A stretch of 64,000 bases of DNA from Bolinopsis microptera. Lineage: Eukaryota > Ctenophora > Tentaculata > Lobata > Bolinopsidae. The DNA lies in assembly GCF_026151205.1 (NCBI RefSeq), contig NC_087081.1:15922837-15986836 (forward strand), read 5' to 3'. The translations under genes and the position numbers were made by a program. The notes below the pieces were generated by a model. It was not told the origin of the DNA. It saw nothing but the letters and a program-made list of their open reading frames with translations, and made no database searches. Of this stretch, positions 13,832 to 60,189 are shown in pieces (the first letter of the stretch is position 1; the number at the start of each line of letters is the position of its first letter).

Positions 13832-16306
13832 TAATATTTTCTGATAAAAACCTGTTCTCAAAATAAAAAGTAACACCCTCCCATACCTCAATACCATTTA
13901 TTTGGTTCTGAAACAGACATTTTCCTCATTACTCATTCCTTGTCAGAAACAAGATAACGAAACGCTTCCATGGCGGGAATGCCTGCTTGGTACCTTGCCA
14001 CAACGCTTCAATTGCAGCTGATTACTTACTTATGTTACTTAAATGTGATTACAAACTGTGAAGTATTAAAACTCACATATCTTTGATGCCAGGATACCAA
14101 TTGAATAAATTGTCAAGAACGTAATTTGATAACTCCTTAGGCCAAGTTTCTAGTTGATGCGGGAACCACATTCCTTAGTGCTATATTGCTAAGGTTGGTG
14201 GTGTGACGTGGAAGCAGTGGTGTTCTAAAGGACTCGAGATGGCTCCAAAATCTCACCAGTAATATGGGATGGAATTCGAAGTTTTAACATTTATATTTTT
14301 GACTCCATATATATTTGTCAATGATCTAGTTTCCAGTTTAATTACATAATCAATTTAGCCACTGAACGTTCCGACTGCTGACCAATTTTTGGTCGCTCAT
14401 GGTGATACGATAACTATTATTAAGTATTGGTTAATTAAATTGATTAAATTCGTGGATTGATTAAAATTCGTGGATTGATTAAAACATCAAAAATCGTTTC
14501 TTGGAACCACCTCAACTTATCATTCCGGATGAAACACAATATTTTTCACGTTTCCTGGTATGATTATATCTAGCAGGGTAAACATAATAATATCTAGGCT
14601 ATGAAGTAGGAGATGACGGCTGACCAAAGTGGAATGTTCCGAGGATAGTGTAAGCAGTATCAGAACATCGGGTGTAAAATGATGCCTCAGATTAGCACAT
14701 TTAAAGTTCACAAAATACGCACTTCACATCGTGACACCCCGAAATGTGAAAAACCATTCTCTTGATGATAACATACTGGAACGCGCGTAAATAAAATTTA
14801 TATGCAGCATGACAATAAATCACCCAGTAAAACTAAAGACGCGCGCGCTCTCCCACGCGCTACGCTTAGCTCGATCGCATGCGATGCGGACGTGACTTGA
14901 CCCTTATACCTGTTATTATAGCTTGTACGTTGAGAAGGTCAGTTGTAAGAGCAAGAAGGCAAAGCACAGTTTACATTTACTTTGCCTCTACCAAACTATG
15001 TATCTAAATAAGAAATCTTAAAATTTGGTCCTTTACATGACACATGTGTCTCTCAACTCGAAGTTGGCGCTGAGAGTGAGAATAGTAGTTCATGGAGAGA
15101 ACAATTCCCGGATCACGGCTATAATAAATAAAGCAGAGGTTGTTTCGTTAGTGGTAAGATTACGAACGTACGTCATGCTTCAAAGCTTGCCTTCCCAGTG
15201 CAATTTGTCACTTCAAGTACTAAAATACTGCTTCTAATCTAAAATGAAGACAGAATGAATTAAGAGCTCCGATCCTTATAATTTACCATTCAGACCAGGT
15301 AATACTCATATAATACATGATCATAGCAAAAATACGGAACATTATTAGTATTGGCGTAGACTCCAGTTCACAAGTTGGGCGCTTATAGTCTAAAGTCTTA
15401 GAGTCCTAATAATAAGGCCACCATGAGTCGGTTTGGAATTAGTAAACTAAGTGTTTGTCAGATATTGATAAATATAACTTACTTTTGAACTAATTAAGCT
15501 TATAGTTGCAGAATGAGGATAAGATTCAAAGGAGCTGTTTCTATAGTTTGTCTAGTACAGATTTGTGGGCTAACTCGGGCAGTTTTAATAGTAGTCAGTT
15601 TAATTTGTGTGGCTTAATGCTTATCATTTGACAACCCTTTAAAATGAACAAATTTAAACAATTTTATAATGGAAACTCAACTGTAAAATATTACCATCAG
15701 TAAATAAATGGAGTCAATGATTCAATTTAAAGTCAAAACATACGATAGGAAATCCGGCCGGAATTTTTCAAACACTCCTACATAAAGAATAGCTAGTTGA
15801 TTTACAAATCAATGTTAAATTTAACCCATCAACAAATAGCTTGCTTGAATAAGTTATAAATTGAAAAGTTAAATATTCAAATAAATAATCAAATTTAATA
15901 AGTTATCTTTTGAAATCTGAATATTAAAATAGAATAAATAATAAATGGCCACTTAGACCTCACCCAAGATCACAAGATAAATTTCAATAGAAACCTAAAT
16001 ATTCAAATATAAGTCAGTTAAATTGTTGGCAATAATAATATTAGACACTCTAGAAATTTAAGCAGTTTTGAATTTCGAAAAGCACGGAAAATTTAGGATA
16101 CAAGTTCAAAATTCACATAAAATACACATTTTAAAGTCAAAGTCTTACAAGCCATTTTGGAACTAAAAAATATTTTATTCCTTATTTAAACAGCACAAAC
16201 CCTATAAATAATAAATAATAAATATAAGTATGTAATACTACAAACGATATCATAAAATTACCAATATCACCGACAAAGTCTCTCTTCTGAATAAAGTTTC
16301 TTCCTC
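13832..16306. other. Gene-free AT-rich stretch before the CCCH gene
   Basis: No supported gene. A CpG-rich, alternating CGCG patch lies at about 14838-14895. The part from 15600 to 16300 is very AT-rich with AAATA-type runs, and its end is probably the 3' UTR of the minus-strand CCCH gene (AATAAA on the minus strand at 16174-16179). Confidence 0.4.
16174..16179 (-). terminator. Candidate polyadenylation signal of the CCCH gene
   Basis: AATAAA on the minus strand, 128 bases past the stop codon at 16307-16309. Confidence 0.45.
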
Positions 16307-27270: not shown

Positions 27271-27632
27271 TAATTAATTTTTTGTAATTGGAATTTTCCA
27301 ATCATTGAACCCCAATGACAATTTCAATTTTTTCAATTACACTTTCCATTTAAAAGTAGTAAATTACGTATGTATGACAGTCTGTATGTTTAGTTAGACT
27401 TTTTAAGTTTCAATTCTTTTGTCTTTTTTCAATTCCTAAAAAGTTGATTGAGACAGATATTGGTTTAAACCACTGTGAACATCACAGTTTACGACAGTTG
27501 AAACATACAAGATTTATAAGTCTAAGTTATTGAGCTCCAGCAGAAACATTTTTATTTGCTTCGAAATTTACCAAGAAATACTAATAATCATTTAACGAAC
27601 AATATTTAATGGTATTGACATAACTACAGAGA

Positions 27633-29507
27633 ATGATGATGCTCTCCCTGCTCGTGTACCTGGTGTTAGCATATCACTCTGCTCAAGCCACCACTTATTC
27701 CGACCAAATGGAAGGACTGAGATTTGCCGATGACGGATACATCCAATTCAGTCCGGATATGAGTCCTTTTGTCAACAAAATGTCGGTTTGTAGCTGGATA
27801 CGTTATCTCGGATCAAACCAATATCCTCAGATATTAAACTACGGGAGTAATCAAGTTCGTTTTCAAAGCAATGGTGATCACAACTGCGCGTCTAATTACT
27901 GCTATTTGCAAGTAGGAAGCAAACTAACAGTGCCTAAAGGACAGTGGTTTCATGGATGTTTAACTTACAGCACTGCCTCCCGGTCCATTCGGTACTACGC
28001 TGACGGTGCACTTTTAGGGACAGCGCAGACATCAGCAGGCAATGTTATTTCAACCGGAGGAATATTCGTATTGGGGAGTCATTCAGGCAATCATCATACT
28101 AGCGCTTACGCATTTGGTGGAGAGATGCTACAGCTCAACGTCTACGCAAAGGAGCTGTCTGGAGAAGAAATCAAAAGAATGGCTGACGCTGGTATATGTT
28201 CTACTATAGAAAATGAGAATGAGGACGTGCGTGTTCTGAAATGGGAGGACATGTTAAAGAAGAGTAGAACAGGAACCGTTACAGAATTCAGTATCATTGA
28301 TCAATGTTTATCCCAAATATTGTCACGTCTTGAGGAGGCTGAACGTAAGGTGAACGAGACAGAAACGCAGCTCTCGGCCACTAAGCATTTATTGGCAGAA
28401 TGTCAGCAGTCTTTGGAGGAATCCGAGCAGACATTAGAGGAAACAGTTAAGGAAAAAGAGGTCATTGAGCAGACCCTGAACCAGACACAAACAAAGCTAA
28501 ACTCTACGGAACTACAGCTGGAAAATGTATCTACAAACTTGAACAGAACAGCTGACGATCTTCAAACGGCCCTGAAACAGTTGGAGCAATGCAACCAGAC
28601 CAGTCAAAGTTGGGATTGGGATCTTTTCTCCCAGGACACCTACGTGAACACGACAATCTCTTTAGAAGTTGCTGAGCGGCTTCGTTCTAGCTGGGACAAC
28701 ATAGCTGGTATAATATTAAATCATGATTTTATTACTCAAACAACTTAATATTTGTAAACAAATTTGACCATCATTGCATATGGTGTTTCAAAAATTTTTA
28801 ATTTTGATAAATATTTTAAAAATATTCTCTGTGCGTCATATCATGAACTATGCTGAGAATCTTTATCCTTTTAATATAACATATAAAACCTGAAACTTTT
28901 ATTGTTCATCTCAATCGCTTAAAGGAAGATCAAGATTATAAATCAATTCACTCTGGCATATTTATTTAAATAAACTGGCATATTTCAGAGATGATGATCG
29001 GGTTCACGATAACCGACCAGTTCATCACGTTTCTAAAGCACATTGACACTGAGGAAAGACCGTGGACAATGCTACATACCAAACGGTACCTAAACAAGGT
29101 GTTCACAAGAGAAGATGCTAACTCACTCATCACCATGTGGGACGGAATTAGCGGTAATTTAGTAATCATCAGTTAAAATAAATATTATATTAATTTTATA
29201 TTAATCATAAGTAAAACTAAACATGTGACATTTCTATAATTCTTATTTCTTAGTACAAATTTTGGGGGTTTAGTAAATTTTGTTGATGTTAGTAATAGTT
29301 GGTTATTAACTCTAGGGTGGAGCTGCACGTGTGCGCGGCTTTGTTGGTTATTGACTATTTAAAATGGTCGGGTTAAATATTTTCAGACCCAGGATACTGT
29401 TATTTAATGGCACAATCTTTATATTTTCAGGGAGTCTTGTCGGTGTTACGATGACGAGGGAAACGGTGGAACTCTTGAAGTACATCACCAAAAATTGCAC
29501 TGACTAA
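27633..29507 (+). CDS. Secreted LamG/pentraxin-like protein with coiled coil, three exons
   Basis: Exons 27633-28707, 28989-29153 and 29431-29507 join in phase with GT-AG sites and give 438 residues. A hydrophobic signal peptide (LSLLVYLVLAYHSAQA) opens the protein. Residues about 28-190 form a concanavalin-like LamG/pentraxin-type domain (MSVCSWIRY, WFHGCLTYS, YYADGALLGT, FGGEMLQLNVYAKELSGEEI). An acidic coiled coil follows at about 225-310 with several N-glycosylation sequons (NET, NQT, NST, NVS, NRT). The last 110 residues are not recognised. It is likely a secreted, oligomeric, carbohydrate- or ligand-binding glycoprotein; this is inference. A partial duplicate, including about 50 bases of 5' flank, lies at 34277-34900. 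Confidence 0.88.
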
Positions 29508-34276: not shown

Positions 34277-34900
34277 ATGATGATCCTCTCCCTGCTCGTG
34301 TACCTGGTGTTAGCATTTCACTCTCTTAAAGCTATCAGTTATTCCAACCAAATGAAAGGACTGAAATTTGCCAATGGCGGAGGCTCATACATAAGTACAT
34401 ACGGTTTAGCTCAGACATGAGCCCCTTTGCCAACAAAATGTCGGTTTGCAGCTGGGTACGAGACATTGGATCGGGCACATGGCCTATAATTTTTAGTTAC
34501 GGCGCTGATATAGTGCGATATGAAAGTAGCGGGCGTTACAACTGTGCAACCAAATGTCATCTGGACGTTAGAAGCAAGCTCTCGGTGTCTAAAGGAACGT
34601 GGTTCCATGCTTGTTTGACTTTTAGCACTTCCTCCCGCTCCATGAGATACTACGCTGACGGTGCACTTTTAGGTACGTTACAGACACCTGGCAGCACTAT
34701 TCCAACTGGCCATAGCTTCACATTGGGAAACGGTGATAGCTATCTCACCCGATCCGATCATGCATTTGGTGGAGAGATGTTTCAGCTCAACGTCTACGCA
34801 AAGGAACTGTCTGGAGAAGAAATCAAAAGAATGGCTGACGCTGGTATGTGTTCTACTAAAGAAAATGAGAATGAGGACGTGCGTGTTCTGAAATGGGAGG
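34277..34900 (+). pseudogene. Duplicate of the LamG/pentraxin-like gene, frameshifted and truncated
   Basis: The 5' flank from about 34223 and the coding sequence parallel the gene at 27633. It has the same signal peptide (LSLLVYLVLAFHSLKA), the LamG core (MSVCSWVRD, WFHACLTFS, YYADGALLGT) and the KENENEDVRVLKWE linker. Near 34390 an extra 8 bases (AGTACATA-type) shift the frame, so the start-proximal frame stops at 34418-34420 while the rest of the domain stays open from 34417. At 34901 the reading frame runs into the foldback element, and the coiled coil and later exons are missing. A tandem or segmental duplication followed by decay is the simplest reading. Confidence 0.82.
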
Positions 34901-36190
34901 GGTCATACATCAGTGTACCGACGGCAGTACGGCGGCAGTACGGCGGCAGCACGGCGGCAGTACGGCGGCAGTACGGCGGCAGTACGGCGGCAGCACGGCG
35001 GCAGTACGGTGGCAGTACGGCGGCATTACGGCGGCAGTACGGCGGCAGTGCCACGGCAGTATAGTGACAACACTTATATCAGACTTTTGATCCAATTATT
35101 TCATGAGTTTGATGATTAGTTCACATTGATTTGTCAATTCAAGAGACGATTTTGATGATTTGTCAATTAAAAACATATTTGGATAAATCAATATTAGTTG
35201 TAACATGTAAATAAGTTCATACAATATCATTATAAATCAGTAACTGTCACCCTGGAGCAATAAACTAATTTACATTTAGAGAATCTTTCCAGCAGCAATT
35301 GCGAGTCGTTTCTTCTCCAGAAAGTCACTCTGCTTGAGGATAGCCCCACATCGGTCAGAGAGAATCTGCTGGTTGATCCTGTCAGTCCGCTCCTCCTTGA
35401 GAATCTGTTTGATGAGACTGGCGAATCGTGGTCTATCAAGGATAATCAGCTCTGCTATCTTCTTCTTGCGGTAGAAGGATCTTTCAGGGGTTCGTTTCTG
35501 TTTCAGGGGACGAGATCTCTTTCGTGTTGGGGTAGCCAGTGTTCCTCAAAAAGATCGACAACATGGTTAACGCAGGAGCTTCTCTAGATGACGCTGTGAG
35601 TTACATGGGTATCACATCAGAGAAATACAAAAGATACCAGAAATACCTGCAATGAATCTGAATTATTTTAATACTTTATTGCTCCAGGGTGACAGTTACT
35701 GATTTAAAGTTATGATATTGTATGAACTTATTTACAACTTATTGATTTCTCGAAATATGTTTTTAATTCGCAAATCAATGTGAACTAATCATCAAAATCA
35801 TGGAATAATTGGATCAAAATTCTGATATAAGTTTTGTCACTATACTGCCGTGGCACTGCCGTGGCACTGCCGTGGCACTGCCACCGCACTGCCGCCGCAC
35901 TGCCGCCGCACTGCCGCCGCACTGCCGCCGTACTGCCGCCGTACTGCCGCCGTACTGCCGCCGTGCTGCCGCCGTGCTGCCGCCGTACTGCCGCCGTACT
36001 GCCGCCGTACTGCCGCCGTACTGCCGCCGTACTGCCGCCGTACTGCCGCCGCACTGCCGCCGCACTGCCGCCGCACTGCCGCCGTACTGCCGCCGTGCTG
36101 CCGCCGTGCTGCCGCCGTGCTGCCGCCGTACTGCCGCCGTACTGCCGCCGTACTGCCGCCGTACTGCCGTCGGTACACTGATGTATGACC
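34901..36190. mobile_element. Foldback element with minisatellite-bearing inverted arms
   Basis: The left end GGTCATACATCAGTGTACCG and right end CGGTACACTGATGTATGACC are exact inverses. Each arm then has an 11-bp minisatellite (CTGCCGCCGTA on the + strand at right; its complement at left) and a shared 190-220 bp inner arm ending near 35266 and 35676. The arms differ in unit count, about 13 at left and about 29 at right. The 0.4-kb core holds two short divergent frames. The element interrupts the LamG duplicate. No target duplication was found. Confidence 0.88.
35276..35545 (-). other. Unrecognised basic frame in the foldback core
   Basis: About 90 codons without a start, reading TPTRKRSRPLKQKRTPERSF, then YRKKKIAELIILDRPRFASL and ending AIAAGKIL. 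It is very Lys/Arg-rich and helical in character. A divergent frame on the + strand (about 35541-35655) reads KKIDNMVNAGASLDDAVSYM, then GITSEKYKRYQKYLQ. I do not recognise either. They may be remnants of the autonomous partner's proteins or captured sequence. Confidence 0.35.
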
Positions 36191-37888: not shown

Positions 37889-38575
37889 CTAGACTGTTGT
37901 TTCACTATCCAATAAACATTTCCATAGATGCTTAGTGACCTCAGCTTTGAAAAGACTAGTAGACACAATCTGTCTTACCTGTAAAGGGAGTCCATTCCAC
38001 AGTATATGGGTTCTGTAGAAAAATGATTTTGCCAGTGGGCTATTTGAGGTACATGTGGTGTGTGAATTCTGACTTAACTTAGGTAAAATTGATGACACAA
38101 TAGACAGACTGTCGAGGTGGCAACGTCTTAGTCGAGAAGTGCCCTGATATAGAGAGAGATAGTGAGGCAGCGATACAGGAATTAAATTGTTAAGAACTTT
38201 GTGGAAAAAAATAAGATCATTCAAGTCAAACTTTAGAGACAAAGGGAGAATGTCGACAAGCTTGCACTTTTTGACATATTGCTCAGGTGGATAACTGCGG
38301 CCCTCTTCAGACAGAATCCATTTAATAGCTCTCTTTTGGAGACTTTCTAATTTATCACTAAGTGATTTATTACAAGGGCGCCAGATTATGGAACAATTCT
38401 CGAATTGGCTACGAACCAGGGAGAGGTAAAGCGCCCGGCGACGTTTCTGATCAATGACAATATGGCCATCTCTTCTGACCATACCAAGTTGTTGGCAGGC
38501 CTTAGTATAAATTCTGTCGCACTGACTATTCCAACTTAACTTAGGAGTAACATCGACTCCAAGAAGTGTGAATTA
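37889..38575 (-). pseudogene. 3' part of a non-LTR retrotransposon reverse transcriptase
   Basis: The open frame runs from 38482 down to 37889 and is continued in frame upstream to about 38571 (GVDVTPKLSWNSQCDRIYTK). It contains SLVRSQFENCSIIWRPCNKS, a LQKRAIKWI block and FYRTHILWNGLP, the thumb and C-terminal connection region typical of Jockey/CR1-group elements. All RT catalytic motifs are missing, so this is a 5'-truncated insertion. The minus-strand 3' end runs into an ATT-type short repeat (about 37862). Confidence 0.75.
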
Positions 38576-38800
38576 TTACTTACTATTTTTTAATAAGAAA
38601 TTTAAATAGATTTTACTTTACAATTTACATTACTTTTTAAAGTATTAATTTAGAAGCACCTAGTTAAATAATTTGACTTTTCAGTCTTACATTATTACGT
38701 TAGCAATGACTATGATTTGTTTCAAACAGGTGAAAAATTTAAATGTGTAATCTCACAACTGTCTTTCGGATAAAACATTTCAGCAATTGGCCATAAAATA

Positions 38801-40494
38801 CTACTACTATGTTGGAACTAAGTCCAATCTACGCCAGATAACCCCCTCCATATATCCCTGTCCCACATCAGGGTTCGCAGTTCCTATTTAGAGTTTGTCC
38901 CAACTTCCTTCAGTAACATAGACAAGTAGCTTTGTCTTGGTCGGCCTTGCTGTGCTCTACCATGCATAGGTTCCCATAAGACTAAATCACTGGCAAGTAG
39001 CTCAGGATGTCTGTTGCAGTGTCCCGCCATTTTTAGTCTCCTGCTTCGTAACTTGTTTGACAGCCTTGGTAGACTAACATACAAAGTTATATTGCTGACC
39101 TTGTCCTTCCATGAGATACCCAGCACCATACGCAGCATCTTTGTGTATGTCCCGTCCAAACTTTTTTCTTGAGCCTTTGTCAGTGTCCAGGTTTTTGATT
39201 CGTAGAGCAGTACTGACTCACAAGCCGCTATGAAAAATCTAATCTTTAGGCTCTTTGAGAGTTTGGATTTCCAGATATCCTTAGGGCGCTCCATGCTTTT
39301 CCCTTTCTAACCCTTATCTCCCTATCTGTGCTCTTAATCCAGGAGCCTAAGTAGATGAAATCATCCACATTTTCTATGGCTTTCCCAGATCGACTTTGGA
39401 GGCCGCTAGATCGATCCTTCATATTCAATGTCATAACCTTGGTCTTGCCTTCGTTTATGTGAAGCCCCACGCTCGCTGCCGCCGATTCCACTCGGAGCAG
39501 GAACTCGTTAGCCCTGTCCAGTGTCCATGTCCTCAGATATAAGTGCTATATCATCTGCAAAGTCCACATCGGTGATGATCTTGGGCCCCACTCTTCTGCT
39601 TTTTCTACGTTCGAGAGTGAGTCCAAGTCGCTCCGCATCATCACCTATGGCTTGCCTCATACAGTAGTCGATGACTATTGCAAAAAGGTAAGGTGCTCGA
39701 ACAATTCCGTTTCTCCGTCTGGAGTTAGGACTTTGGCCATTGCCTTCTCGTACATGTGCCGTATAAGCTCTACGATTTTGACTGGAATGCCGTAAGCTTC
39801 TAGAATCTTGAGCACTTTCCCACGATGTACACTGTCGAAAGCCTTCTTAAAATCTATAAATGTCAGAACAGCTGGCAGTTTCCGACTCTTGACACCCTCT
39901 ATTAGACGCCTCAATACCTATATATCTGCTGGGCTGTTGACCTTCCTGGTCTGAATCCGTTTTGGTTTCTGCGCAGAATTGTCTCGATTTCTGGTTTCAA
40001 GTGGTTCAGGACCATTTTGTTCAGAGCCTTGGCAACTAGGCTTATTCCCCGATAGTTCATTGGTTCGCTAAGTTCGCCCTTTTTTGGAATTGGTATGTTG
40101 TTCACAATTGACCATTGGTCTGGTTTCTCGCCTCTCAATAGAGCATGGTTACAGAAGTCTAAGACAATTTGATCAAGGTCGCATCGTTTTAAGACTTCTG
40201 GGGCTATGTTGTCGTCAACACATGCTTTCCCTTCCTTTATACTGGACTTTGCTTCCCTGTACTCATCCAACGTGAACGCTTCTGTTCCGATATTCAGAGG
40301 TGGGTGGACTGGATCAATATCCTCTTCCGCATTCGCTACCGTCGGTGGTGAGCCTAGAAGAGTAGCAAAATAGTCCTGCCATTTCTGAACTCGTTCCGTT
40401 GGTGAGTTGCCCTTGATTTTGCCAGTATACGATGGAGCTTTACCCGTAATCTTGTTGATCATGGTCCAGCTTTTAGCATACCTGCCCTGCCAAC
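38801..40494 (-). pseudogene. RTE-like non-LTR retrotransposon, 5'-truncated, several frame breaks
   Basis: Minus-strand frames 40462-39911, 39914-39675, 39491-39246 and 39294-38884 follow one another along one RT. They contain GKACVDDNIAPEVLKRCDLD, NYRGISLVAKALNKM, QNGFRPGRST, LTFIDFKKAFDSVHRGK, a DFADD catalytic core near 39550 and a C-terminal RRLKMAGHCNRH with GRPRQSYL. The pattern matches an RTE-type RT common in invertebrates. At least three frameshifts separate the pieces. The 14-bp TTGGCCATAAAATA occurs at both edges (38787-38800 and 40495-40508) and is a candidate target duplication. The 3' end carries a TAG-type short repeat. Confidence 0.82.
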
Positions 40495-40508
40495 TTGGCC
40501 ATAAAATA

Positions 40509-42079
40509 ATACGTCATATATAATAAATAAATAAATAATTGAACAAGGTATTGTAAGTGCTTTTAAACTCATCATTAAAACTAAATGTCACTATAAGACC
40601 AAAAACTAGTGGGTTGCGACATGAAGTTATGGGCCAAAATTGAATTAATCGAAATTCTAAAATACCACTCCCAGGTCCACCAGGAAGGATAAAAGTGCTG
40701 CCAAGAACCGTAAAGCTACCAGCACACCAGTACCACACACTGATAGGAGTGACACGACCATAAAGTTTACTGATAACAATTACCCTGAGGATATCAGCAG
40801 GATTGATGAGGGGTGAGGGATGGTCGATGGAGTTATAGCTTTAGTCACAAATCAGATGCCAAACATCAAATATTCTAAAATAATTTTATTTAGTGATAGA
40901 TACAAGATAATAGTATTTTACTCATTTAGAATATTATTTCATGATAAAAAATGATTTTCACAGGATAATTTTGCTGACTGTTGAGTATATTTGAGGTGAC
41001 AGTTGCAATAGAATGTCTATTTACATGTAAGACCTTATCAATGTCATCATTATCGACCCAAGGTCTCAAATAAAAATAAGACGAATGTTTAACTTAAGTT
41101 AGGGAAGTAAGCCAGATTTTGGCCCTCGCTCTTCTTTAAGGCATTTTACTGGTACACTCACACATAATACCTATCGACTATTGTGTATAAATAAATCGAG
41201 CGATCTTAAATTTTAAATAGCCGTTGATCTAGACGGCGCACGTTTTTACCCCTAACATCTTCAATCTTTAATTAGGAGTAATTAATTAATTAGGAGGATC
41301 TAAATCTTAAGATTTTCCAAATAATTTGTGCATGAGTTTTATTTGATAGTATTTGATGATTTGATCGTTTTTGATTCATGATTTAAATTTAATGTTTTTT
41401 ACCATATTAAGTTTGCGACAAACTAAAATAAAAGTTTTTTTGTATAAATGGAAAAAGAAGGAATGTGAACACACGGAAGGAATTTGTAGGGTATTCTTCA
41501 CCAGTTTATAAATTTTATCTATTTAAAAAAAACAATTAAAGCGCGTTAAATAATTGTAGCAAATTTAGAATAAAATCATTATTATCAATTTCAAAAGGGT
41601 TGCTTAAACTCTCAACAATTAGTCCTTCCAGTTCCAGTTCCATTACTTCAGTTACCAAACTTTGCAACTTTAATACAACACTTCAACACGTCCTCTTCAA
41701 TTCAGTGGCTAGACTTCAATCCGAATGGTACTGGCCACTGGGTACAGGATTTTGATTTAACTAATTCAAAACAACTCTCTAACTCTTTCAAAAAGTGTCA
41801 CTCCAGATAAATAGTCCTCAGTTTCAGCTCTTTAATCTTTGAAAGAATATTAAGTAACGTATATGAACAGATATTAATAATGGATTGTTAATCGGAGCTT
41901 TCATTGAGAAAGAATTCGGTCTAAGGTCATCGCGGTTGAGTTTCACTAAACTATCGTCCAGGCTTGTAACGGTGTGAGGAGGTAATAACTTGTTTAGAGC
42001 CGCTAATGATGGCTAAAGCAATCTAATATACTTAGACTAGTTACTTTGGAGGCTCTCAATCATCATCAATTAATTTGAC
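40509..42079. other. Gene-free stretch
   Basis: AT-rich, with short AAATA runs near the left edge. No supported gene or structured repeat is seen. Confidence 0.4.
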
Positions 42080-43536: not shown

Positions 43537-45363
43537 TTATGTTGCTTGAAAAAACATAACACTTAGATCTTTATAAGTAACAACAATTTCCCTCAGTTGA
43601 TTGATATTCATACTGCACGTAGACCAAACAGGATACTGTGCCATACACTTCTCTTTATCAAAGAGAATGAATTTAGGATCAGTAATATGATGGTAGAAAC
43701 GATCGTCACGACGGTTAAGTCTAAAAAGGGGCCCCTTGTTTTCAGGTAGAAATTCTGGGGTATAGTTATAATTAGTGAAGTGATAAGGTGGTAAATTGTC
43801 TTTCATCAAAATGTAAATTTTCGGAGTCAGTGATCGAGAACAGCATAACAATCTTCCTGACAAAGGTGGCCGTTTAACAGGGTTGCCTTGTTCAAAAACA
43901 ATCTCATTCTTGTGTTTATTGCACTGATAGTGATAAGAAAACCGATAAGAAAACTTCCCTCCAATAAGGGACGTGGTTAGAAGGTATGGTTGGAGCACAA
44001 AGTTCAGATACTCATCAGGAAGATAGCACAGGCAAACATAACTGTTTATCAGTCCCAAAATCTTTTTATCATCCCCAACGTTTGTAAGAGCCCAGTTTAT
44101 TATACATTCCACAATCCTAATGTCTAATAAGTTAACTTGGCTGCCATATGACATGAGTGTATTCTTTACTTCACAACTTCTTGATTCTTTTACAAATTTT
44201 CTAAGATTCAGGAACGACAAAGTATCCCATTTGATGGTGAGGATTAATTCCCGAAGCCGTATGAAGCTGTGAATCTGCACAGTGTTTATTATTGAAAACG
44301 GGAAAAGATTAAATTCATAATCATTCAGCCTCACCAAGTCTGTTATGTTATCTTTCGTAACCAATTTCTTCCAGTTTTTATACAAAAACTCTTCTATAAG
44401 CTGCTTTGTTATAGGATCTCCGCATGAATAAAATTTCTTTACAATTAAGAAGTAGTCAGATAGAGGAATTGATTGGTCACTCTTCCGTGGGTGCTCTAAC
44501 AGCATTTTCATCTTTTCGAATATTTGCCGACAGCTCTTCAGTTTCTTGTTACTGCTTGATTCATCTGTTGTTGGGAGTTTGGGAATATTCGACATCGTCT
44601 TAATGTCCTTCATAAGAGGGACTTTTAGGCAGTCATCAATGTGCATATCACCTACTACCCACTCAAAAACTAAACATAGATCTGACATGTCTATAGTATT
44701 AAATTTTATCAAAGAAATCAAGGTTGGCAAATGGCAGATTCTATTAGTGACATCTGTTTCAAACCATTTGCAGACAAATCGGAATTTCTCCATCTCAGGT
44801 ACTGCAGCAGAATCCCCATTATTAATAATGGTACACAGACAATAATAATCAATATTTACCAGTTCGCCAGTTTTTGTTAGGCTCTCAAGAAAGTTTGGTG
44901 AAAGGTAGTCCAAACACAATTCTTTCAGGTCTTCACAGCATATTGAATGAGAGAACTTTAAAATGTCGATAAACGTTGCTTCAGTTATCATATTATCAAG
45001 AATAGCAAATATTTTGCTTTTCAGCCAATCGACACTGTAGATCTTAGCAAATTTATATACAAATTTAGCATCATCCTCACTAACTTCAATGCATCCAGTA
45101 TAAAGACTCGTAATAATACCACATAGAAGATCATAGTTTTCCTCAGACATATCAGATAAAATAACATGGTATAGTTTATCAGCCACTGAATAATAAACAT
45201 CATCAGTCTTCATGATATCACAGTAAGCATCTAGCACAAATTTATGTGCAGGAATCTGACGATCTCCTACACAGAGTAAAACATCAGCTTCTAACCGATC
45301 TTTTGAAAGAACTTCCAATCTCTGGGTTAGACGTGTTGACCAGTTTCCATCTGGACCCACCAT
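43537..45363 (-). CDS. BTB/POZ domain protein, single exon
   Basis: A 608-codon frame without interruption. The BTB domain lies at about residues 20-115 (ADVLLCVGDRQIPAHKFVLD, VILSDMSEENYDLLCGIITS-LYTGCIEV). A BACK-like helical region follows at about 120-260 (ILKFSHSICCEDLKELCLDY, RFVCKWFETD, VFEWVVGDM). The C-terminal 300 residues are Leu- and Lys-rich and not recognised; no Kelch or zinc-finger repeats are seen. BTB-BACK proteins usually dimerise and often recruit Cullin-3, which here is inference. The gene is intronless and lies between a pogo-like element (42082-42952) and another end of the same family (45892), so retroposition or transposon capture is possible. AATAAA on the minus strand overlaps the stop region. 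Confidence 0.82.
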   Translation of the reverse strand: MVGPDGNWSTRLTQRLEVLSKDRLEADVLLCVGDRQIPAHKFVLDAYCDIMKTDDVYYSVADKLYHVILSDMSEENYDLLCGIITSLYTGCIEVSEDDAKFVYKFAKIYSVDWLKSKIFAILDNMITEATFIDILKFSHSICCEDLKELCLDYLSPNFLESLTKTGELVNIDYYCLCTIINNGDSAAVPEMEKFRFVCKWFETDVTNRICHLPTLISLIKFNTIDMSDLCLVFEWVVGDMHIDDCLKVPLMKDIKTMSNIPKLPTTDESSSNKKLKSCRQIFEKMKMLLEHPRKSDQSIPLSDYFLIVKKFYSCGDPITKQLIEEFLYKNWKKLVTKDNITDLVRLNDYEFNLFPFSIINTVQIHSFIRLRELILTIKWDTLSFLNLRKFVKESRSCEVKNTLMSYGSQVNLLDIRIVECIINWALTNVGDDKKILGLINSYVCLCYLPDEYLNFVLQPYLLTTSLIGGKFSYRFSYHYQCNKHKNEIVFEQGNPVKRPPLSGRLLCCSRSLTPKIYILMKDNLPPYHFTNYNYTPEFLPENKGPLFRLNRRDDRFYHHITDPKFILFDKEKCMAQYPVWSTCSMNINQLREIVVTYKDLSVMFFQAT

Positions 45364-45774
45364 GCTTCATTGAGTTCTATACATAACCTATAATATATTG
45401 GTGATTACAGACCATTTTCAATAATTATTACTTATAAAACACAATGTCTAATAAAAAACACATGGTTACAATTATGGAAGGTTGGAGACAAGGCTGTGAA
45501 GATGTGCTACTGAGAATAACTGGCAGTCATCTGATTTTAAATATTGAATCTATTCTGACAGTGATAGTTAATGTTGCATTTTCTACCGATACTGAGCATG
45601 TGATGTACTTTGGCAGTCATGATAATCATACAACTTTTGCATCTTAAATTTCGCAAATTATCCGTCCGATGGCCATATTACTATCTGAAAAGTTTGAAGA
45701 AAATCGTATTGCGGGTATTGTGGGATCTGGAGAAAATTCAAAATTATTCTAAGTTATTTGCTACAACATTTTAT

Positions 45775-51857: not shown

Positions 51858-52330
51858 TGAGAGTCTCGCCCTACAGATCAGGAATTGAGAGTATCGTCCT
51901 ACAGATCAGGATTTGAGAGTCTCGCTCTACAGATCAGGAATTGAGAGTCTCGCCCTACAGATCAGGAATTTAGAGTCTCGTTCTATAGATCAGGAATTGA
52001 GAGTCTCGTTCTACAGATCAGGAATTTAGAGTCTCGTTCTATAGATCAGGAATTGAGAGTCTCGTTCTACAGATCAGGAATTGAGAGTCTCGTCCTACAG
52101 ATCAGGAATTGAGAGTCTCGTTCTATAGATCAGGAATTGAGAGTCTCGTTCTACAGATCAGGAATTGAGAGTCTCGTCCTACAGATCAGGAATTGAGAGT
52201 CTCGCCCTACAGATCAGGAATTGAGAGTCTCGCCCTACAGATCAGGAATTGAGAGTGTCGTCCTACAGATCAGGAATTGAGAGTCTCGTCTTACAAATCA
52301 GGAATTGAGAGTCTCGCCCTCGGCCCTACA
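51858..52330. repeat. 28-bp minisatellite (GAGAGTCTCGTCCTACAGAT-CAGGAATT)
   Basis: About 17 contiguous units with small substitutions. GAGAGTCTC is partly palindromic. It lies about 0.7 kb upstream of the retrotransposon ORFs and could be either 5' UTR repeats of that element or unrelated. Confidence 0.93.
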
Positions 52331-53149: not shown

Positions 53150-53262
53150 TTTTCTTGGCTTTAGTTCAATCATTTTTACTTTACATTACGCATCAACATT
53201 TTTGCTCTCTAATCTTTTCACAAGTGCACTGACTTGCTGATAAGAAACTGCTTGATTTTATC

Positions 53263-55056
53263 ATGTCCGGCCATCTTAACAAGTCGACCTCTGCTGCTAA
53301 CAAGACTCCTGCTGCTAAGAAGACTCCTGCTAGGAAGAACAGTATCACTAAACCTGCTGCCTCCGGGTCACCCTCCGACACGGAGGCACCCTCCCTCGGT
53401 ATGTTGGGCTTTGGTGTGCCATCAATTTACACGTTTTGCGCTAAGACGTGTTTAAACGTTTTACCTACCCTCTCCAAAGAAGATATAGATTTTGAATACA
53501 ACAGGCTCCGTTTAATTGACTCCGCATTTACTGGCAAAGCCACTAAGCCTGACACCAAACAAGCCGCCATCAAACAATATCTAACACGTCAAATAGTCGT
53601 TGATATAGATCAATCCATGAATAGTCTAACTGCGGCAGCTAACTTACTTTCATGTACTGTTAATGGGGAGTGCGAGAAGGCGGTGAAACATCTAACAGAA
53701 CGTGCTCTGACGGCGATCGAAGAAGTCTCTGATGAAACGAAGAAACAGACCACCCTCATCACACAGCAGACTGCAACTCTCATCTCTGAAGCCCCCTCGC
53801 AGAACCTTGACACTTCCAGAGAAGTTACAAGTATGCCTCATTCGCCGGTAAGACTTTTAGAGTGCGATCTTTCCGAGTTAACTTTTGATAAAGTTTCAAG
53901 TGAGCTAAACTTTGACATGCACCACCCTGGAGGCCGTATCACAACTTATTATGGCTCCGTCCCCTACACGTACGGCAGAACCTCACATCCTGTCTCTGTT
54001 GGGCCACTTCCACCCACTCTGGAACATGCGTACGAGCAACTGCAAAAACTGGACGCTGACATAACCCCAGAGAACTACACTTGCCTTTGCACTTTATACA
54101 AGGACGGATCGGTCGGCATACCGATGCATAATGACAGCGAACCTAGCATAATGGAGGATAGTCAAATTTTTACAGTGTCGATTGGAGCACCTAGAAACCT
54201 TAGGATATCAAGTACAGTAGGCCCCTTTGTCGAGCATAACATTCCACTTGAGCACGGTTCACTTTACGTCATGTCACGAGCAGATCAGGACAACTGGCGC
54301 CACGGCATTGACCGCGATATCTCGGTAAGGTTTCCACGCATTTCACTGACTTTCCGCAAACTGAAACAACAAGAGTCATGCACTGTGCCTGCACCTCCAG
54401 CTCTCCATCGGATACCACCTGTTGCCCCTCCAGCTCAGAACTCCTCCTCTCAGTCTCGTCACTCCAGGGTCCTATTCATACATGACTCTATCCATCGTGA
54501 AACACCTGAATGGTTGTTCGATCAGATACCCGGCCACCGCTGTCAGAAGCGTTTGAACTACCAGCTCATAGACTCTTTGGATCATGACCTCAAACATGCC
54601 AAAACTGTGATCATCTCATGTGGCATAAACGATCTTTCACGGTATGGAAAATCTGCCAAGAGTCTGGCTGATAACTTTTGTCCCCGCCTTGTCGAAAGCT
54701 GTAAGAGCAACAAAAGCACACAGTTTGTTTTTTGTGCTTTGTCTTTAACGAGAATTGGTTGGTTGAACAGAGAAATTGATGATTTTAATCTATGTATGGT
54801 GAATCTCGCCAGGGTGATACCCAATCTGACATTTTACGATGCCCATGCCGTTATCAAGCGGGTTCATTCATACTACGTATGGGACCGCAATGATAAGCAT
54901 GGCATCCATTTACATCACGATGTCAGAAGGGCTGTTGCATATGAACTTGTCAACTGCGTTGGCAAGTTATGTGGATCAGAACTGCCACGCCACAGGAACT
55001 GTGCGTGGCTCTACCACCATGAGCCTAACAGTCCTTTCAGATATCACCGTGGTTGA
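53263..55056 (+). CDS. ORF1: AlkB-like Fe(II)/2OG dioxygenase fused to SGNH/GDSL esterase
   Basis: An intact 597-codon frame. Residues 1-40 are basic and rich in KTPA/KKTPAR, suiting nucleic acid binding. Residues about 220-367 form an AlkB fold: H289-N-D291 iron ligands (IPMHNDSEP), SIGAPRNLRI, LEHGSLYVMS, H347 (NWRHGI) and RISLTFRK with R359 and R365 for 2-oxoglutarate. AlkB enzymes oxidatively demethylate alkylated DNA or RNA bases. Residues about 400-565 are an SGNH/GDSL-type hydrolase: HDS with Ser409, CGIND with Gly454 and Asn456, and HGIHL with a catalytic-type His549. The residue where Asp is usual, directly before GIHL, is His546, with Asp544 nearby. Esterase domains are known in CR1-group ORF1 proteins; an AlkB domain beside one is not something I know of. 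ORF2 starts 740 bases downstream. Confidence 0.88.
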   Translation: MSGHLNKSTSAANKTPAAKKTPARKNSITKPAASGSPSDTEAPSLGMLGFGVPSIYTFCAKTCLNVLPTLSKEDIDFEYNRLRLIDSAFTGKATKPDTKQAAIKQYLTRQIVVDIDQSMNSLTAAANLLSCTVNGECEKAVKHLTERALTAIEEVSDETKKQTTLITQQTATLISEAPSQNLDTSREVTSMPHSPVRLLECDLSELTFDKVSSELNFDMHHPGGRITTYYGSVPYTYGRTSHPVSVGPLPPTLEHAYEQLQKLDADITPENYTCLCTLYKDGSVGIPMHNDSEPSIMEDSQIFTVSIGAPRNLRISSTVGPFVEHNIPLEHGSLYVMSRADQDNWRHGIDRDISVRFPRISLTFRKLKQQESCTVPAPPALHRIPPVAPPAQNSSSQSRHSRVLFIHDSIHRETPEWLFDQIPGHRCQKRLNYQLIDSLDHDLKHAKTVIISCGINDLSRYGKSAKSLADNFCPRLVESCKSNKSTQFVFCALSLTRIGWLNREIDDFNLCMVNLARVIPNLTFYDAHAVIKRVHSYYVWDRNDKHGIHLHHDVRRAVAYELVNCVGKLCGSELPRHRNCAWLYHHEPNSPFRYHRG

Positions 55057-55796
55057 GCACTAATCCATAAATGAATTAATTATATAAAAATCAACCTTTT
55101 CTGTCAAGCCTTTAAATTAAGCATATCATCAAGTATTTTCATATCTTTTTCAGTACATCCTCACTCCTCATCCAAATTCATCATTTGATTGCTACCACGA
55201 TCGATTTTTGAAGAAATGATCTGATTGGTCGAAAATGCTTATCTTCTTAAGCTTATCAGATGAACTGATGAACATTCTTTCACTATCAAGCATTTTTGTC
55301 TCTTATCATCCCACCATACATTTCCTAAAACATTTTCACATTACCAAACAAAACTGTGCACATTTTATTTAATAATTATAGAAGCTTCTCTGGTAAATCA
55401 GCATCAAGCACGTTTCCTCAGTCAAAGTTCAGTGCAACAGTATTTTCGAAAACTTCACAAACAACTAAATAGCAAAAATCACCACACAAAACTACACAAC
55501 GAAACAATTTCACACATACAAATCACAACGACTTAATATACACTTTAGGTAAAGTCATATTATCATACTGATAAGCCCGAAAATCGAGATAAGGGCACTA
55601 TATTGTAACATTTGATTTAGCGAATATTTTTAACAAATAAGTAGATAAGACTCAGATCATGATTCTGTAGCATACAGGACCTCCGGTTCTCGTGAAAGAA
55701 TCTGATTTGCACTAGTATAGATATATTTTACGTTATTTATAAATTTATACATTTTTTATTCTCTAATTCCTCCACAAGCATAAGAGTTAACTTAAA
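55057..55796 (+). other. Inter-ORF spacer of the retrotransposon
   Basis: 740 AT-rich bases between ORF1 stop and ORF2 start, with no frame of note. This is long for a two-ORF non-LTR element, where the ORFs often overlap or nearly abut. An insertion here cannot be excluded. Confidence 0.5.
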
Positions 55797-58700
55797 ATGG
55801 CAGCGAATGGAAATGTTACTGATACTTCTGGTCATAAAATCAAAATAAAATGTGGTAGCTGTAGCGGCTGGTGTTATTCTTCCAAAAACATCCGCAGCTG
55901 TTCATGGTGCCAAAACAACGTCCACGTCAAATGTTTTAAGGAAAATTTAGGTTGTACAAGCTGTTGTGAAAGTCTTATTCCTGGATTTTACGCGGCTTAC
56001 TATGAAATTTACGATGACAACAATAAGCTTAATTGCGCTATTTATAATCCATACGCTCAAAATAGTCGATGTAATCTTATTGGAGACGCCATGACCAATG
56101 AAGAGCACCAGGATTCAACATGGAGTGACATTTCGGCTTTCCTAACTCACTGTCAGTATAAACAGCAACGTAACGTAAAAAGGTCGACATCCTCTCAACT
56201 TAAAACATTTTCCATGAATATCAGATCCCTTTTCAAAAATATTGATCAACTACGAGAAGATATAGAAATATATGATAAGTATGATGTATTGTGTTTTAAC
56301 GAAACTAACTGCACACTAGAAAAATTGCCTAACGGAATAAACGACATCACATTAAATGGATTCCATGAACCGTATATCCAAGATCCCATCCGCACATCGG
56401 GTAAAGGTGGGGGGCTTGCCATATACATACACAAACGTGTAGCTGACTCTGATAAAATTGATATTTTCAATCCCAACCCTGAACCCTCAAATACTAGCGG
56501 CGAATTTCAATTTATCAAGATCCACCAGTGTAAAGGATATAATAGAACAAAGATAATTGGAAATGTTTATCGCTCTCCCGCTAGAAAACCTGAAGCATTT
56601 CTTGAAATTTTTAAAAGTACGCTTCACAACCTGGGAAGACACTCTCGCAAACATATGACGTTACATGGAGATTTTAATCTAAATTTACTGAAGCACAGTA
56701 GCAACCAGGCATGTCAAAGCATTATAGATATTGCATCCTCTTACGGTTTCATCCAAATTGTATCACGTCCAACTCGCATAACAGACCACAGTGCCACGCT
56801 TATTGATCATATCTACACGAACAATCTTGAAGATACAATAAGCTGCAACGTATTAACGACAGATCTGTCGGATCACTTAGCGATAGTTACAACAATTAAT
56901 CTTGATAATACATCCACCAGCAGTTACCGCTCCGCATCTTATAATCAAAATCCAACACAAACCAACGTACGTAGTTTTAATGAGGCCAACAACCATAAAT
57001 TTAGAGATTTAATAATGGAAGAAAATTGGTCTGTAATACTAACAAATACCCCTGATGCTAACCAGCAGTTTGATTGTTTAAATTCGGCTTACAACAGGAT
57101 TTATAACGCTGCCTACCCGACAAAAAGACAGTCCGAGCGCAGACAAAATGAACGTGTTAATCCCAAACCATGGATACTGCCCTGGCTTGAAGAAGCTATA
57201 GAACGTAAAAATCAGGCATATCATGATTTTGTTAAGGAACCAGTTGATAGGAACCAGCTAAAATATGACCGTTTGAAAAAGTTTTGCACCAAACACGTTG
57301 ACAAAGCCAAAAACATACACTACAAAAAATTCTTTGAACAACACAAAGATAATTCTAAGAAGCAGTAGCAGATGATTAACGGACTTCTGAATAGGAAACC
57401 AGCCAAACCTACATCGATAAAACTGTCGGACGAAAACGGACAAGTCAGCACTCCGGCAGCAGTAGCAGAAAAATTTAATGATCACTTCTCAAACATCGCT
57501 CCAAAAATTAAATCTGAAATTAGTAGTAGGACCACTTTCGATCCTGGTGGGGCCCAGGGGACACTACGTAACCCTTCTCCAAATAGTATTTACATAAAAC
57601 CAGTCACAACTACCGAAGTTCAAGACGTTATTAACCTATTTAAGAATAAAGCTACTCTTGACACCAAAATCCAACCACTCAAAATTGCCAACAGCTGTCA
57701 TAATTTTACCACTGTATTGGCCCACGTTGTTAACAGCTCGTTCGAACAAGGGGTCTTTCCCCAAGCCTTGAAAACGGCAAAAGTAGTTCCTGTACATAAA
57801 GGTGGATCTAAAACTGACATCAAAAATTACAGACCGATATCTCTACTTGCCACTTTCTCAAAAGTCTACGAAAAGCTTATGCACAATCGAGTCATAAAAT
57901 TTCTTGGATACCTACAATATACTTTGTGAAAATCAATACGGCTTCCGCCCAGGTAGGTCTTGTGAACATGCACTTCTTAATGCTAAAGACAGAATCCTCA
58001 ATTCAATGTCTAAAAAGCAAGTTACTTTGCTCCTCTTGATTGACTTTAGCAAAGCCTTTGACCTTGTGGATCACTCCATACTCCTGAATAAGCTCGAGCA
58101 CTATGGCATAAGAGGTCTAGCTTTAAACTGGTTTAAATCATATCTTATGAACAGAAACCAGTTTGTATCAATTGGATCCTCTGAATCCTCAGCCAATCCA
58201 ATTATTTACGGTGTACCCCAAGGTTCAATTTTGGGACCTCTCCTTTTTATAATCTACATAAACGATCTTCCTCAAATATCAGAAATAGCTAATTTCATCA
58301 TGTACGCAGATGATGCAAACATTTTCCTAACAGGAGAAAATATAAACGAGGTTTATGATAAGCTCAAAATTCTTAGCGATGTCTTAGTTAAATGGGTAGA
58401 TAACAACGGATTAGCTCTAAATCTTAAAAAAACGAATTATATGATCTTTTCTCGACAAAGAAACCTCATTTATCGCGATGTAGTAATTTCTGGTGTCACA
58501 ATCGAAAGAAAAACAGAAGCCCGTTTCTTAGGTGTTATAATAGATAACAAACTGAACTGGTCGCAACATATTTCTGCCATGAAAATGAAAATGGCCAGAT
58601 ACATTGGAGTCATGTACAAACTTAAAAAATATTTGCCTCTGGAAGCACGTTTACAAATATATCACAGCTTTGTGCAGTCTCACCTTAATTACTGCTCCCT

Positions 58701-59283
58701 CGTCTGGGGTTTTGCTGCCAAATCCCATATAGAAACACTATTTGTTAAACAGAAAATGGGTCTTAGAGCAATACTACCAGGTTTTGTTAATTACTGGTAC
58801 AAAGATGGTACACCACCAGCAAGTACCAAGTCTGGTTTCTATGTACACAAAATATTGACAGTTCAAAGTATCATCGTGAAGAACGCATTAGTTTTTATAC
58901 ATAAGCTAAAAAACTTCCCAAGTCTAGTGCCTCCCTCTATAAAGAAAACAATACCTAACAGTGCACCAATATTTAACGTCGCCGATCCGGATTCGAGTCT
59001 TACAACTTTATGGTCAGATGAATACGGTAAACACCCTTACAATAATTCAGTATTCTACAAAGGTCCACTATTAGCAATAAACAGATATAGTGTCGCAGCA
59101 ACTTCCTTGCCAAGTCTATTCAACCTTAACATCTACAAAAGGTGCATAAAAAACATGCTCATTGATCAACAAAACGAGGGCATTGCAGACGAATGGCCTA
59201 ACTTTATGTTATACAATATAACGGGACTAAGGAAATCAGAGCGCAACATCAACCGTAATGCTAATAATAACTCTGTCCCATAA
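55797..59283 (+). pseudogene. ORF2: PHD-like finger, AP endonuclease and reverse transcriptase (one stop, one frameshift)
   Basis: The first frame (55797-57368) opens with a PHD-like Cys/His finger (CGSC, CSWC, HVKC, CTSC, residues about 20-60). The apurinic-type endonuclease follows, with SMNIRSL, CFNETN, GGGLAIYIHKR, LHGDFNLN and DLSDHLAI. TAG at 57366-57368 interrupts the frame, which resumes in the same phase to 57929 (KNYRPISLL). One extra G near 57906 shifts the frame. The rest (57904-59283) has QYGFRPGRSCEHALLN, IDFSKAFDLVDH, YGVPQGSILGPLLF and the catalytic YADD at 58303-58314. The architecture is that of the CR1/Jockey group. It would nick target DNA and copy the element RNA there. 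Confidence 0.88.
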
Positions 59284-59611
59284 GCACGCCATCACAGAAT
59301 CAATTTCACTGCATACCATCTCAGTTACACTGCCATCAATTCGCCAGCAAAAACGGCATGACGCTATGCGACTGATAACAGTCGTTAAATTTTTAAAATT
59401 TTGGAATAGCTAGCTAGCAGTAGCTATGCGCCTGTTTCCACTCTAACAACTCTAAAAGCATATTAACATGATAATTTCAACTAAAGGCAACGTTATATGT
59501 GCTCAGCTATGTTTTGTTTCGACAAGCTCTATTATATACATTTTAATCGTTTTAATGAGATCTAATCTTGTATGAGTTTTGAGTTTGAATTGATAACACT
59601 TATTATATCTA

Positions 59612-60115
59612 AGATGGCAAGTACGTACGGTACGTACCTTTAAATTAGCTGTACGGTACGTACTTAATAAAGTAGGCTGAAAGGTACAAAGCTTATTAAT
59701 CCGTCAATATACTGGAAATATTTTGGAGGAGAACTTTTTCTGCTTAAACAGTTGGCCCAAATAGTATTCAGTGTTTTAAGTTCTTCGTCAATTTGTGAGA
59801 CCAATTTTAGAGATTACGAGTATATTATGGACAAGCGTAGATTAAAGTAGTAGTAGTGTAGTACCGGTTAAGAGCGATCCGGTACAAAAATTTTCCTCTT
59901 AAATCTTTTATTGTTTTAACCACTGTGTTTATTTTCGACTTCTATCTCAAAAATTATGATGATAATACTAATCAAAAATTGCAAGTAATTCACTGAAGTT
60001 GATTCTAAAAATTTGAAAAAAAAATTGTACCTTACAGTGCCTGTACGGTACGTACCTTTAAAAGTAGCTGTACCGTACGCACTTAAAGCCCTGTACCGTA
60101 CGTACTTGCCATCTT
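59612..60115. mobile_element. TA-flanked MITE nested in the retrotransposon 3' tail
   Basis: Ends AGATGGCAAGTACGTAC and GTACGTACTTGCCATCT are inverted repeats flanked by TA on both sides. Sub-terminal GTACGGTACGTACCTTTAAA motifs recur at both ends. The 504-bp interior has no coding capacity. A TA target duplication is typical of the Tc1/mariner superfamily. Confidence 0.82.
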
Positions 60116-60189
60116 AGTATTATATATATTATTTTTTGAGTAAACATTGGCTGGTACTTCGGGCCGGTCCCCAACAAAAAAAAAAAAAA

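Follow-up and report, generated by a model that had tools for sequence, protein, structure and literature searches.

What an AlkB-type dioxygenase does inside the first open reading frame (ORF1) of a retrotransposon is the question raised by a locus of the ctenophore Bolinopsis microptera. The locus lies in a stretch of 64,000 nucleotides (assembly GCF_026151205.1, contig NC_087081.1, positions 15,922,837 to 15,986,836, forward strand; hereafter the window), in which an intact frame of 597 codons is the ORF1 of a mobile retrotransposon without long terminal repeats (non-LTR), fusing an ALKBH3/ALKBH2-type AlkB domain to an SGNH-type domain. An earlier note, made from the sequence alone, had proposed such a fusion, and the proposal is upheld by profile hidden Markov model (HMM) matches, by the recurrence of ORF1 and ORF2 in multiple copies, by the spacing between them and by purifying selection on AlkB.

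The frame runs without an internal stop, as the note had stated, and is far longer than the longest stop-to-stop frame of randomised DNA (197 aa in 500 first-order Markov versions of a 7.8-kb region). Its AlkB domain is recognised by the Pfam family 2OG-FeII_Oxy_2 (PF13532) over residues 233-365, with 64.7 bits against a cut-off of 31.2 (E 1.7e-17), and among the sequences of solved structures in the PDB it matches human ALKBH3 (E 1.6e-16) and ALKBH2 (about 7e-11). The residues H289, D291, H347, R359 and R365, which complete the AlkB landmarks, as well as S409, G454, N456 and H549 of the SGNH side, all stand at the positions named in the note. The five catalytic residues of AlkB, namely the iron ligands and both arginines, are kept in all 29 aligned AlkB rows, which comprise 26 element rows from 25 places and three candidate host rows. 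PHROGs returned AlkB and otherwise just families of unknown function, NCBIfam gave one sub-threshold match, and scans of viral and prokaryote contigs gave no confirmed relative.

The SGNH-type domain is harder to recognise in the window copy taken by itself. Lipase_GDSL_2 matches residues 431-550 with E 0.0097 for the whole protein and 9e-4 for the domain alone (16.8-20.2 bits, below the cut-off of 32.9), and no SGNH chain is found among the PDB sequence matches for the window ORF1; HMM searches bear out the AlkB half of the fusion and leave the SGNH half below the cut-off. The identity of the domain is secured by its relatives, because these match in profile-profile comparison: the window SGNH against five ORF1s with SGNH blocks gives Prob 97.8 and E 6.8e-13, and none of eight reversed or shuffled controls matched a GDSL family. 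S409 (block I), G424 (block II), G454 and N456 (GxND) and H549 are in register with those relatives. The catalytic Asp three residues ahead of the His is missing, the D-x-x-H position reading H-G-I-H, so that of the SGNH landmarks which the note had called complete the four residues that it listed are present, but H546 replaces the Asp. This Asp is also replaced in other members of the window's group (L009, L010, L012, L013 and L040), whereas it is kept in L014, L015, L017, L022, L023, L027, L042, L018, L020 and L021; the other groups retain it, L028 apart. Neither a single-sequence AlphaFold model (mean predicted local distance difference test 34.4 for the whole ORF1 and 43.5 for the SGNH part) nor a Foldseek search with the model of the SGNH part (nothing at E <= 0.001, no SGNH hydrolase in the first 50 rows) was used as evidence.

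Other copies in the genome place the frame in a mobile element. Within the window it is followed by an endonuclease-reverse transcriptase (RT) ORF2 and an A-tailed 3' end, 5'-truncated copies exist (L038, L041) and no LTR was found, features by which the element is classed as non-LTR. Its 3' border, GGTCCCCAAC(A)n, is common to all seven other fetched copies; possible target-site duplications in the four copies examined consist of just 5-9 nt matches, by eye not above chance. When the second RT piece was searched against the genome, 92 of 6664 candidates were scored, so that the counts are lower bounds. Among the 94 RT matches listed, 36 show 98-100% identity (the window included), two 94-95%, 32 84-90% and 22 57-59%, and two are short fragments at 74% and 81%; at least 11 of the 36 near-identical copies have open frames of 1,160-1,164 aa. 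Seven further copies of the window family (L030-L036) share 99.3-99.7% identity with the window in the aligned DNA, lack the later insert in its 3' untranslated region (UTR), and all terminate in the same GC-rich block followed by a short A-run. Among the three sibling 5' regions fetched, L038 is 5'-truncated, and L037 and L039, on other contigs, start at the equivalents of 53159 and 53165 and have the same intact 597-aa ORF1, spacer and ORF2 as the window. At the 5' edge of the element, ahead of the leader, these two copies show tandem repeats of about 20 nt that differ between them (approximately 560-640 in L037 and 550-640 in L039).

In a sister family, 25 of 32 RT rows were compared with AlkB rows picked from a PF13532 search of the genome; among the matches listed, AlkB lies 3,420-3,437 nt upstream of RT in 10 of the 13 copies with an ORF2 frame of at least 1,130 aa, and in none of the 12 with shorter ORF2 frames, one AlkB being 9.4 kb away. 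ORF1 and ORF2 occur together in other copies, as the note had asked to see. An ordinary host ALKBH gene, or a chance neighbour next to a LINE (long interspersed nuclear element), might be suspected because three AlkB loci resembling host genes do exist in the genome (L001-L003, the last with an untyped 259-aa frame downstream). Such an origin is made extremely improbable by the two copies on other contigs with the same ORF1, spacer and ORF2, by the near-constant AlkB-RT distance in the sister family, and by the finding of no A run or T run of 8 or more between ORF1 and ORF2 and of no repeat pair flanking ORF1 among those listed. No stand-alone host-gene copy of the window ORF1 turned up, although no genome search with ORF1 itself stands behind this result.

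The PF13532 search of the assembly (264.65 Mb, 232 contigs) returned at least 151 AlkB matches, with 150 of 587 candidates scored, and among the matches listed just one row has stops inside the AlkB match. Twenty regions were fetched by their AlkB match, 15 of LINE type and five with very long frames. In all 15 LINE-type regions, chosen as they were by AlkB, an open AlkB frame of 551-777 aa lies upstream of RT on the same strand. Ten of these ORF1s were scanned, with AlkB above the cut-off in every one, Lipase_GDSL_2 at E <= 0.05 in seven (none above its cut-off) and PHD-type matches, all below cut-off, in four. Their architectures include AlkB-SGNH, which is the window type, PHD-AlkB-SGNH (L022, L027) and AlkB-coiled coil without an SGNH match (L024, L025); in L023 the motif is visible in the SGNH alignment with no Pfam match, and the C-terminus of L028 looks frame-changed. 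L024 and L025 are a LINE of another ORF2 lineage, with an N-terminal AlkB and coiled-coil-like matches. When regions were selected by RT instead, four of six proved to have an AlkB ORF1 (L037, L039, L040, L042) and two were 5'-truncated (L038, L041). The AlkB of L042 falls short of E 0.01 with PF13532, yet reaches 131 bits with a profile built here, and the SGNH region of L040 aligns with its relatives with no Pfam match at E <= 0.01.

The five regions with very long frames (L018-L021 and L026) hold AlkB within frames that exceed 2,000 aa in the fetched region, that of L018 measuring 3,388 aa. In the three long frames scanned (L018, L020 and L026) the order is SGNH, AlkB, DUF6570 and Helitron_like_N, with AlkB above the cut-off in all three and SGNH above its Pfam cut-off in L020 alone (43.5 bits). 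L018 is continued by L044, and the two together hold Helitron_like_N and a PIF1 helicase in one open frame, as expected of a Helitron; in L020 and L026 the Rep part is seen over the region fetched. From this domain order and the PIF1 helicase of L044 it follows that AlkB and SGNH occur together, in reverse order, also in DNA transposons of the rolling-circle type. The SGNH profiles of the window-group LINEs and of the Helitrons do not match each other significantly (Prob 0.5), and each matches the other LINE group (Prob 97.8 and 94.7, respectively).

In the B. microptera genome, several LINE families and Helitron-type elements carry an AlkB under strong purifying selection, comparable to that on the SGNH side. 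Across eight close pairs, 61 synonymous and 27 non-synonymous differences were counted in AlkB, with a ratio of non-synonymous to synonymous change (pN/pS) of 0.123 (p 4e-22). The pooled pN/pS is 0.095 for six LINE pairs (p 3e-11) and 0.148 for four pairs with SGNH on both sides (p 3e-5), a range of 0.095-0.15 that answers, in favour of purifying selection, the test which the note had suggested for the AlkB half. Deeper pairs give dN/dS values of 0.096 (window/L009 AlkB), 0.128 (L014/L017) and 0.135 (the Helitrons L018/L020), dS being near-saturated in the LINE pairs; of 18 pairs run, several were saturated at silent sites and yielded no ratio. Where a single pair has few changes, the ratio is uninformative or higher (0.47 for L009/L010); whole Helitron frames give 0.44-0.52 in close pairs, and the window family itself is too young for a selection test (differences 2:1, 5:7 and 3:6).

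In the AlkB tree, which contains long branches, one branch parts the LINE and Helitron AlkBs from the three candidate host AlkBs and L024/L025 (support 97/96; 93/85 with another row set). The first tree joins L024/L025 to the host AlkBs, yet placing one of them with the LINEs is not rejected (approximately unbiased test, p-AU 0.115); L024/L025 may represent a second, independent capture. The ORF2 and AlkB trees are concordant in their main groups. One clear exchange of ORF1 was seen in L014/L017, where dS is 0.071 in ORF2 and 1.63 in AlkB, with a break near the ORF2 start; this fits the reticulate evolution reported for the ORF1 of CR1 and L2 (PMC4120745).

From the perspective of its substrate, the element AlkB lies nearest to repair enzymes. 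Built from 11 element AlkBs, namely the window and 10 of the 14 segments prepared, with L024 and three host rows left out, a profile matches ALKBH3 (9.5e-28) and ALKBH2 (2.6e-26), followed by ALKBH8 (8.7e-11) and E. coli AlkB (1.5e-10), with an N6-methyladenine demethylase (6e-4) and ALKBH5 (0.14) far behind and FTO not among the matches listed; the element AlkBs are thus placed nearer to repair-type AlkBs than to m6A (N6-methyladenosine) erasers of the ALKBH5/FTO type. ALKBH3-type enzymes work on single strands, which LINEs and Helitrons both expose, and ALKBH3 repairs N1-methyladenine (m1A) and N3-methylcytosine (m3C). The same two lesions are repaired by ABH2 (PMC12295762). Both modifications hinder RTs in common use, and the R2 RT of OTTR is impeded by m1A; after AlkB treatment, which strips m1A and m3C, most 3' tRNA halves are captured better, whereas intact tRNAs change modestly (PMC12140624). 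On the strength of the ALKBH3/ALKBH2-like profile and of this RT blockage and its relief by AlkB, it is proposed, with a probability of roughly 0.55, that the element AlkB clears m1A/m3C-type lesions from single-stranded element RNA or DNA and so serves as a template-repair module. AlkB itself belongs to the element; the chemistry assigned to it here is deduced from its relatives.

According to this proposal, the ORF1 protein (ORF1p) would coat the element RNA and multimerise through its helical N-terminus, while its SGNH fold would contact membrane or protein partners. AlkB would oxidatively remove m1A/m3C-type lesions from the exposed single strand, be it LINE RNA, first-strand cDNA or Helitron single-stranded DNA, which would keep the element polymerase unblocked and make AlkB a self-encoded template-repair module for single-strand replicators.

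The note had also considered a base methylation used in defence, and AlkB might indeed erase a host methyl mark (m6A on RNA, N6-methyladenine on DNA) by which transposons are recognised or silenced. The AlkB protein of an orchid Ty3/Gypsy element is reported to have m6A demethylase and RNA-binding activity in vitro (PMC9289625), and the presence of AlkB in both LINE and Helitron-type elements of one genome could mean a shared defence pressure. Erasure of such a mark is nevertheless weakened to an unlikely explanation because the profile is far nearer to ALKBH3/ALKBH2 than to ALKBH5 or the N6-methyladenine demethylase, FTO not being among the matches listed.

Alternatively, AlkB could be mainly a module that binds single-stranded nucleic acid in place of the RNA recognition motif (RRM), with catalysis secondary. 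No RRM was matched in the window ORF1 or in 10 further ORF1s at the thresholds used, and for ORF1ps of the esterase type a lack of structured RNA-binding domains is reported (PMC3905857); the variable Asn of the N-x-Y motif, described below, would agree with such a role. A pure binder would, however, be expected to lose some of the iron ligands and arginines that are kept in 29 of 29 rows, as the SGNH of the window lineage does show a catalytic-residue loss of this kind, and binding as the main function is therefore rather doubtful, somewhat more so than erasure of a host mark. That AlkB acts in trans to favour the element, with a tRNA, an rRNA, a histone or a silencing factor of the host as its target, would be in keeping with the varied substrates of the AlkB family, but is very unlikely, given that the element AlkB groups by sequence with nucleic-acid repair members.

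Several observations weigh against template repair as the explanation, or limit its reach. The AlkB family typically contacts 2-oxoglutarate (2OG) through an N-x-Y motif, whose Asn is Thr277 in the window; the 26 element rows have Asn in 15 cases, Thr in 10 and Ser in one, whereas the Tyr (Tyr279) occurs in all 29 rows. Being related to ALKBH2/3 does not settle the substrate; the orchid Gypsy AlkB is reported to act on m6A (PMC9289625). Of the 26 typed regions, 20 were chosen by AlkB and the six RT-selected ones were picked for long ORF2 frames, and the genome counts are lower bounds. Finally, an apparent excess of constraint on AlkB over the C-terminal side has p 0.009 in six pairs, 0.17 without L027/L028 and 0.41 in the four SGNH pairs, and window/L009 gives dN/dS of 0.096 in AlkB and 0.081 in SGNH. 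The idea that no part of ORF1 is under stronger constraint than AlkB is thus not upheld against the SGNH side once L027/L028 are dropped or SGNH pairs alone are kept; against the N-terminal part of ORF1 the corresponding values are p 0.0005, 0.003 and 0.052. The odds given for template repair are unchanged by this, because they rest on purifying selection and not on a ranking of constraint. Taken as a whole, the broader picture, in which an AlkB and SGNH pair common to transposon classes (LINEs of several architectures and Helitrons, with AlkBs mostly grouping apart from the candidate host ones) would strip m1A/m3C-type lesions from the elements' own single-stranded intermediates under strong purifying selection, is offered tentatively, at slightly less than even odds.

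The layout of the window element is collected in Table 1. The note had placed ORF1 directly upstream of a CR1-like ORF2: ORF2 does lie downstream, but its ATG follows after a gap of 740 nt and the frame is broken in this copy. It encodes a PHD-like finger, read from the letters, an AP-type endonuclease and an RT, with no RNase H match, and it is on this domain content that ORF2 may be called CR1-like. The spacer contains a 41-nt block that is identical in two families (the window; L009, L010 and L011) although these are nearly saturated at the silent sites of ORF1; its hairpin has z -2.0, with 4 and 8 of 200 shuffles equally good, and z -1.7 in a shorter L009 piece, and it is possibly a signal for ORF2 translation. 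Two candidate features were rejected. A 43-aa upstream ORF at 53015 falls outside the element by its 5' border. A spliced-leader signal was considered for the branch-point/pyrimidine/AG-like motif that precedes ORF1 and ORF2 in the window, but the motif is absent from sister-family leaders; 33 of 2000 Markov versions were as good in 80-nt windows and 122 of 1000 in 300 nt, the ORF2 window of the test ending 9 nt inside ORF2.

Table 1. Features of the window element, in window coordinates.
Feature	Position	Strand	Basis or remark
Non-LTR retrotransposon copy, whole	53159..60189	+	About 6.5 kb minus the later insert; 5' border is the onset of similarity to L037/L039 (53159-53165)
5' leader, about 100 nt	53159..53262	+	Comparison with L037/L039
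ORF1, 597 aa, intact	53263..55056	+	Helical N-terminus, then AlkB and SGNH; L037 and L039 have the same frame intact
ORF1 residues 1-200: tail rich in Lys and Pro, followed by predicted helices (candidate region for multimerisation)	53263..53862	+	Helices from low-confidence model alone
AlkB dioxygenase domain, residues 214-368 (H289, D291, H347, R359, R365)	53902..54366	+	Profile and structure-sequence matches
SGNH-type domain, residues 400-575 (S409, G424, GIND 454-457, H549; H546 at the usual Asp position)	54460..54987	+	Pfam and relatives
Spacer block, non-coding, conserved, hairpin-folding	55669..55709	+	41/41 identical in sister-family copies L009-L011
ORF2 (endonuclease-RT), broken in window copy	55797..59283	+	Stop at 57366-57368, frame change near 57.9 kb
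PHD-like C4HC3 zinc finger, ORF2 N-terminus	55851..55967	+	Read from letters; weak C1_1 match
AP-type endonuclease domain	56217..56876	+	Exo_endo_phos E 1.7e-6
RT domain, split over two frames in window copy	57810..58542	+	RVT_1 E 4.7e-31 (second piece), 0.043 (first)
Later insertion in 3' UTR, about 0.5 kb, 35-nt imperfect inverted repeats	59609..60117	.	Absent from 7/7 other copies (L030-L036)
GC-rich 3'-terminal block and A14 tail	60149..60189	+	Common end of fetched copies

Elsewhere in the window, a 28-nt minisatellite of 16.5 copies lies just upstream of the element (51858-52320), and the remains of another LINE, with RT fragments in several frames, lie on the minus strand (37889-40513). 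A tandem repeat without stops in several frames of both strands (13009-13925), a POU domain match (3485-3961), two Laminin_G_3 frames (27624-28745 and 34330-35061) and a 609-codon frame for a BTB-BACK protein (43540-45366) were also seen.

The window ORF1 is longer than a plain esterase ORF1. It resembles the type IV (esterase) ORF1 of CR1/L2-group LINEs, represented by zebrafish ZfL2-1, in its C-terminal SGNH-type domain, in its position upstream of an endonuclease-RT ORF2 and in the lack of an RRM match, its helices coming from a low-confidence model alone. In ZfL2-1 the triad is S143-D279-H282, with an oxyanion hole of N195 and G165 (PMC3905857). The distance from Ser to His is 140 residues in the window and 139 in ZfL2-1; unlike ZfL2-1, the window ORF1 has AlkB ahead of SGNH, lacks the triad Asp and reads S452, by GxND spacing, in place of the transposon-specific His (ZfL2-1 H191). 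With cellular ALKBH3/ALKBH2, its best profile matches, AlkB shares the iron and 2OG-Arg residues, but it sits in a mobile multidomain protein, and in the tree the bulk of the element AlkBs are separate from those of the candidate host genes, L024/L025 excepted. The element of L018/L044 is like Helitrons in joining Helitron_like_N and PIF1 and unlike them in having SGNH and AlkB upstream of Rep. Plant positive-strand RNA viruses, which encode AlkB domains, are likewise RNA-bearing genetic parasites, but without reverse transcription.

The sole transposon-borne AlkB found in the literature searched is that of giant Ty3/Gypsy elements of Phalaenopsis orchids, a retrotransposon-encoded AlkB-type demethylase that belongs to a plant LTR element, is encoded in an additional ORF and acts as an m6A demethylase in vitro (PMC9289625). 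The B. microptera elements are instead animal non-LTR and Helitron-type elements, with an ALKBH3/2-like AlkB often fused with SGNH. No description of AlkB in a non-LTR element or Helitron was found in the literature searched, Repbase reports and most subscription papers being outside its scope, in agreement with the note, which knew of no such non-LTR element. An esterase-type ORF1 and an AlkB in a retroelement were known before; for their combination, its spread over LINE families and its presence in Helitrons the same searches gave no description.

Little is understood of LINE ORF1 proteins, few of which are known as enzymes. The presence of AlkB in several transposons of one genome makes it testable whether base methylations on transposon RNA or single-stranded DNA limit transposition, as damage or as host defence, and it offers AlkB-RT partners from nature to those RNA sequencing protocols in which AlkB is already used to help RTs past m1A. 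It suggests that these elements clean methyl damage off their own genetic material.

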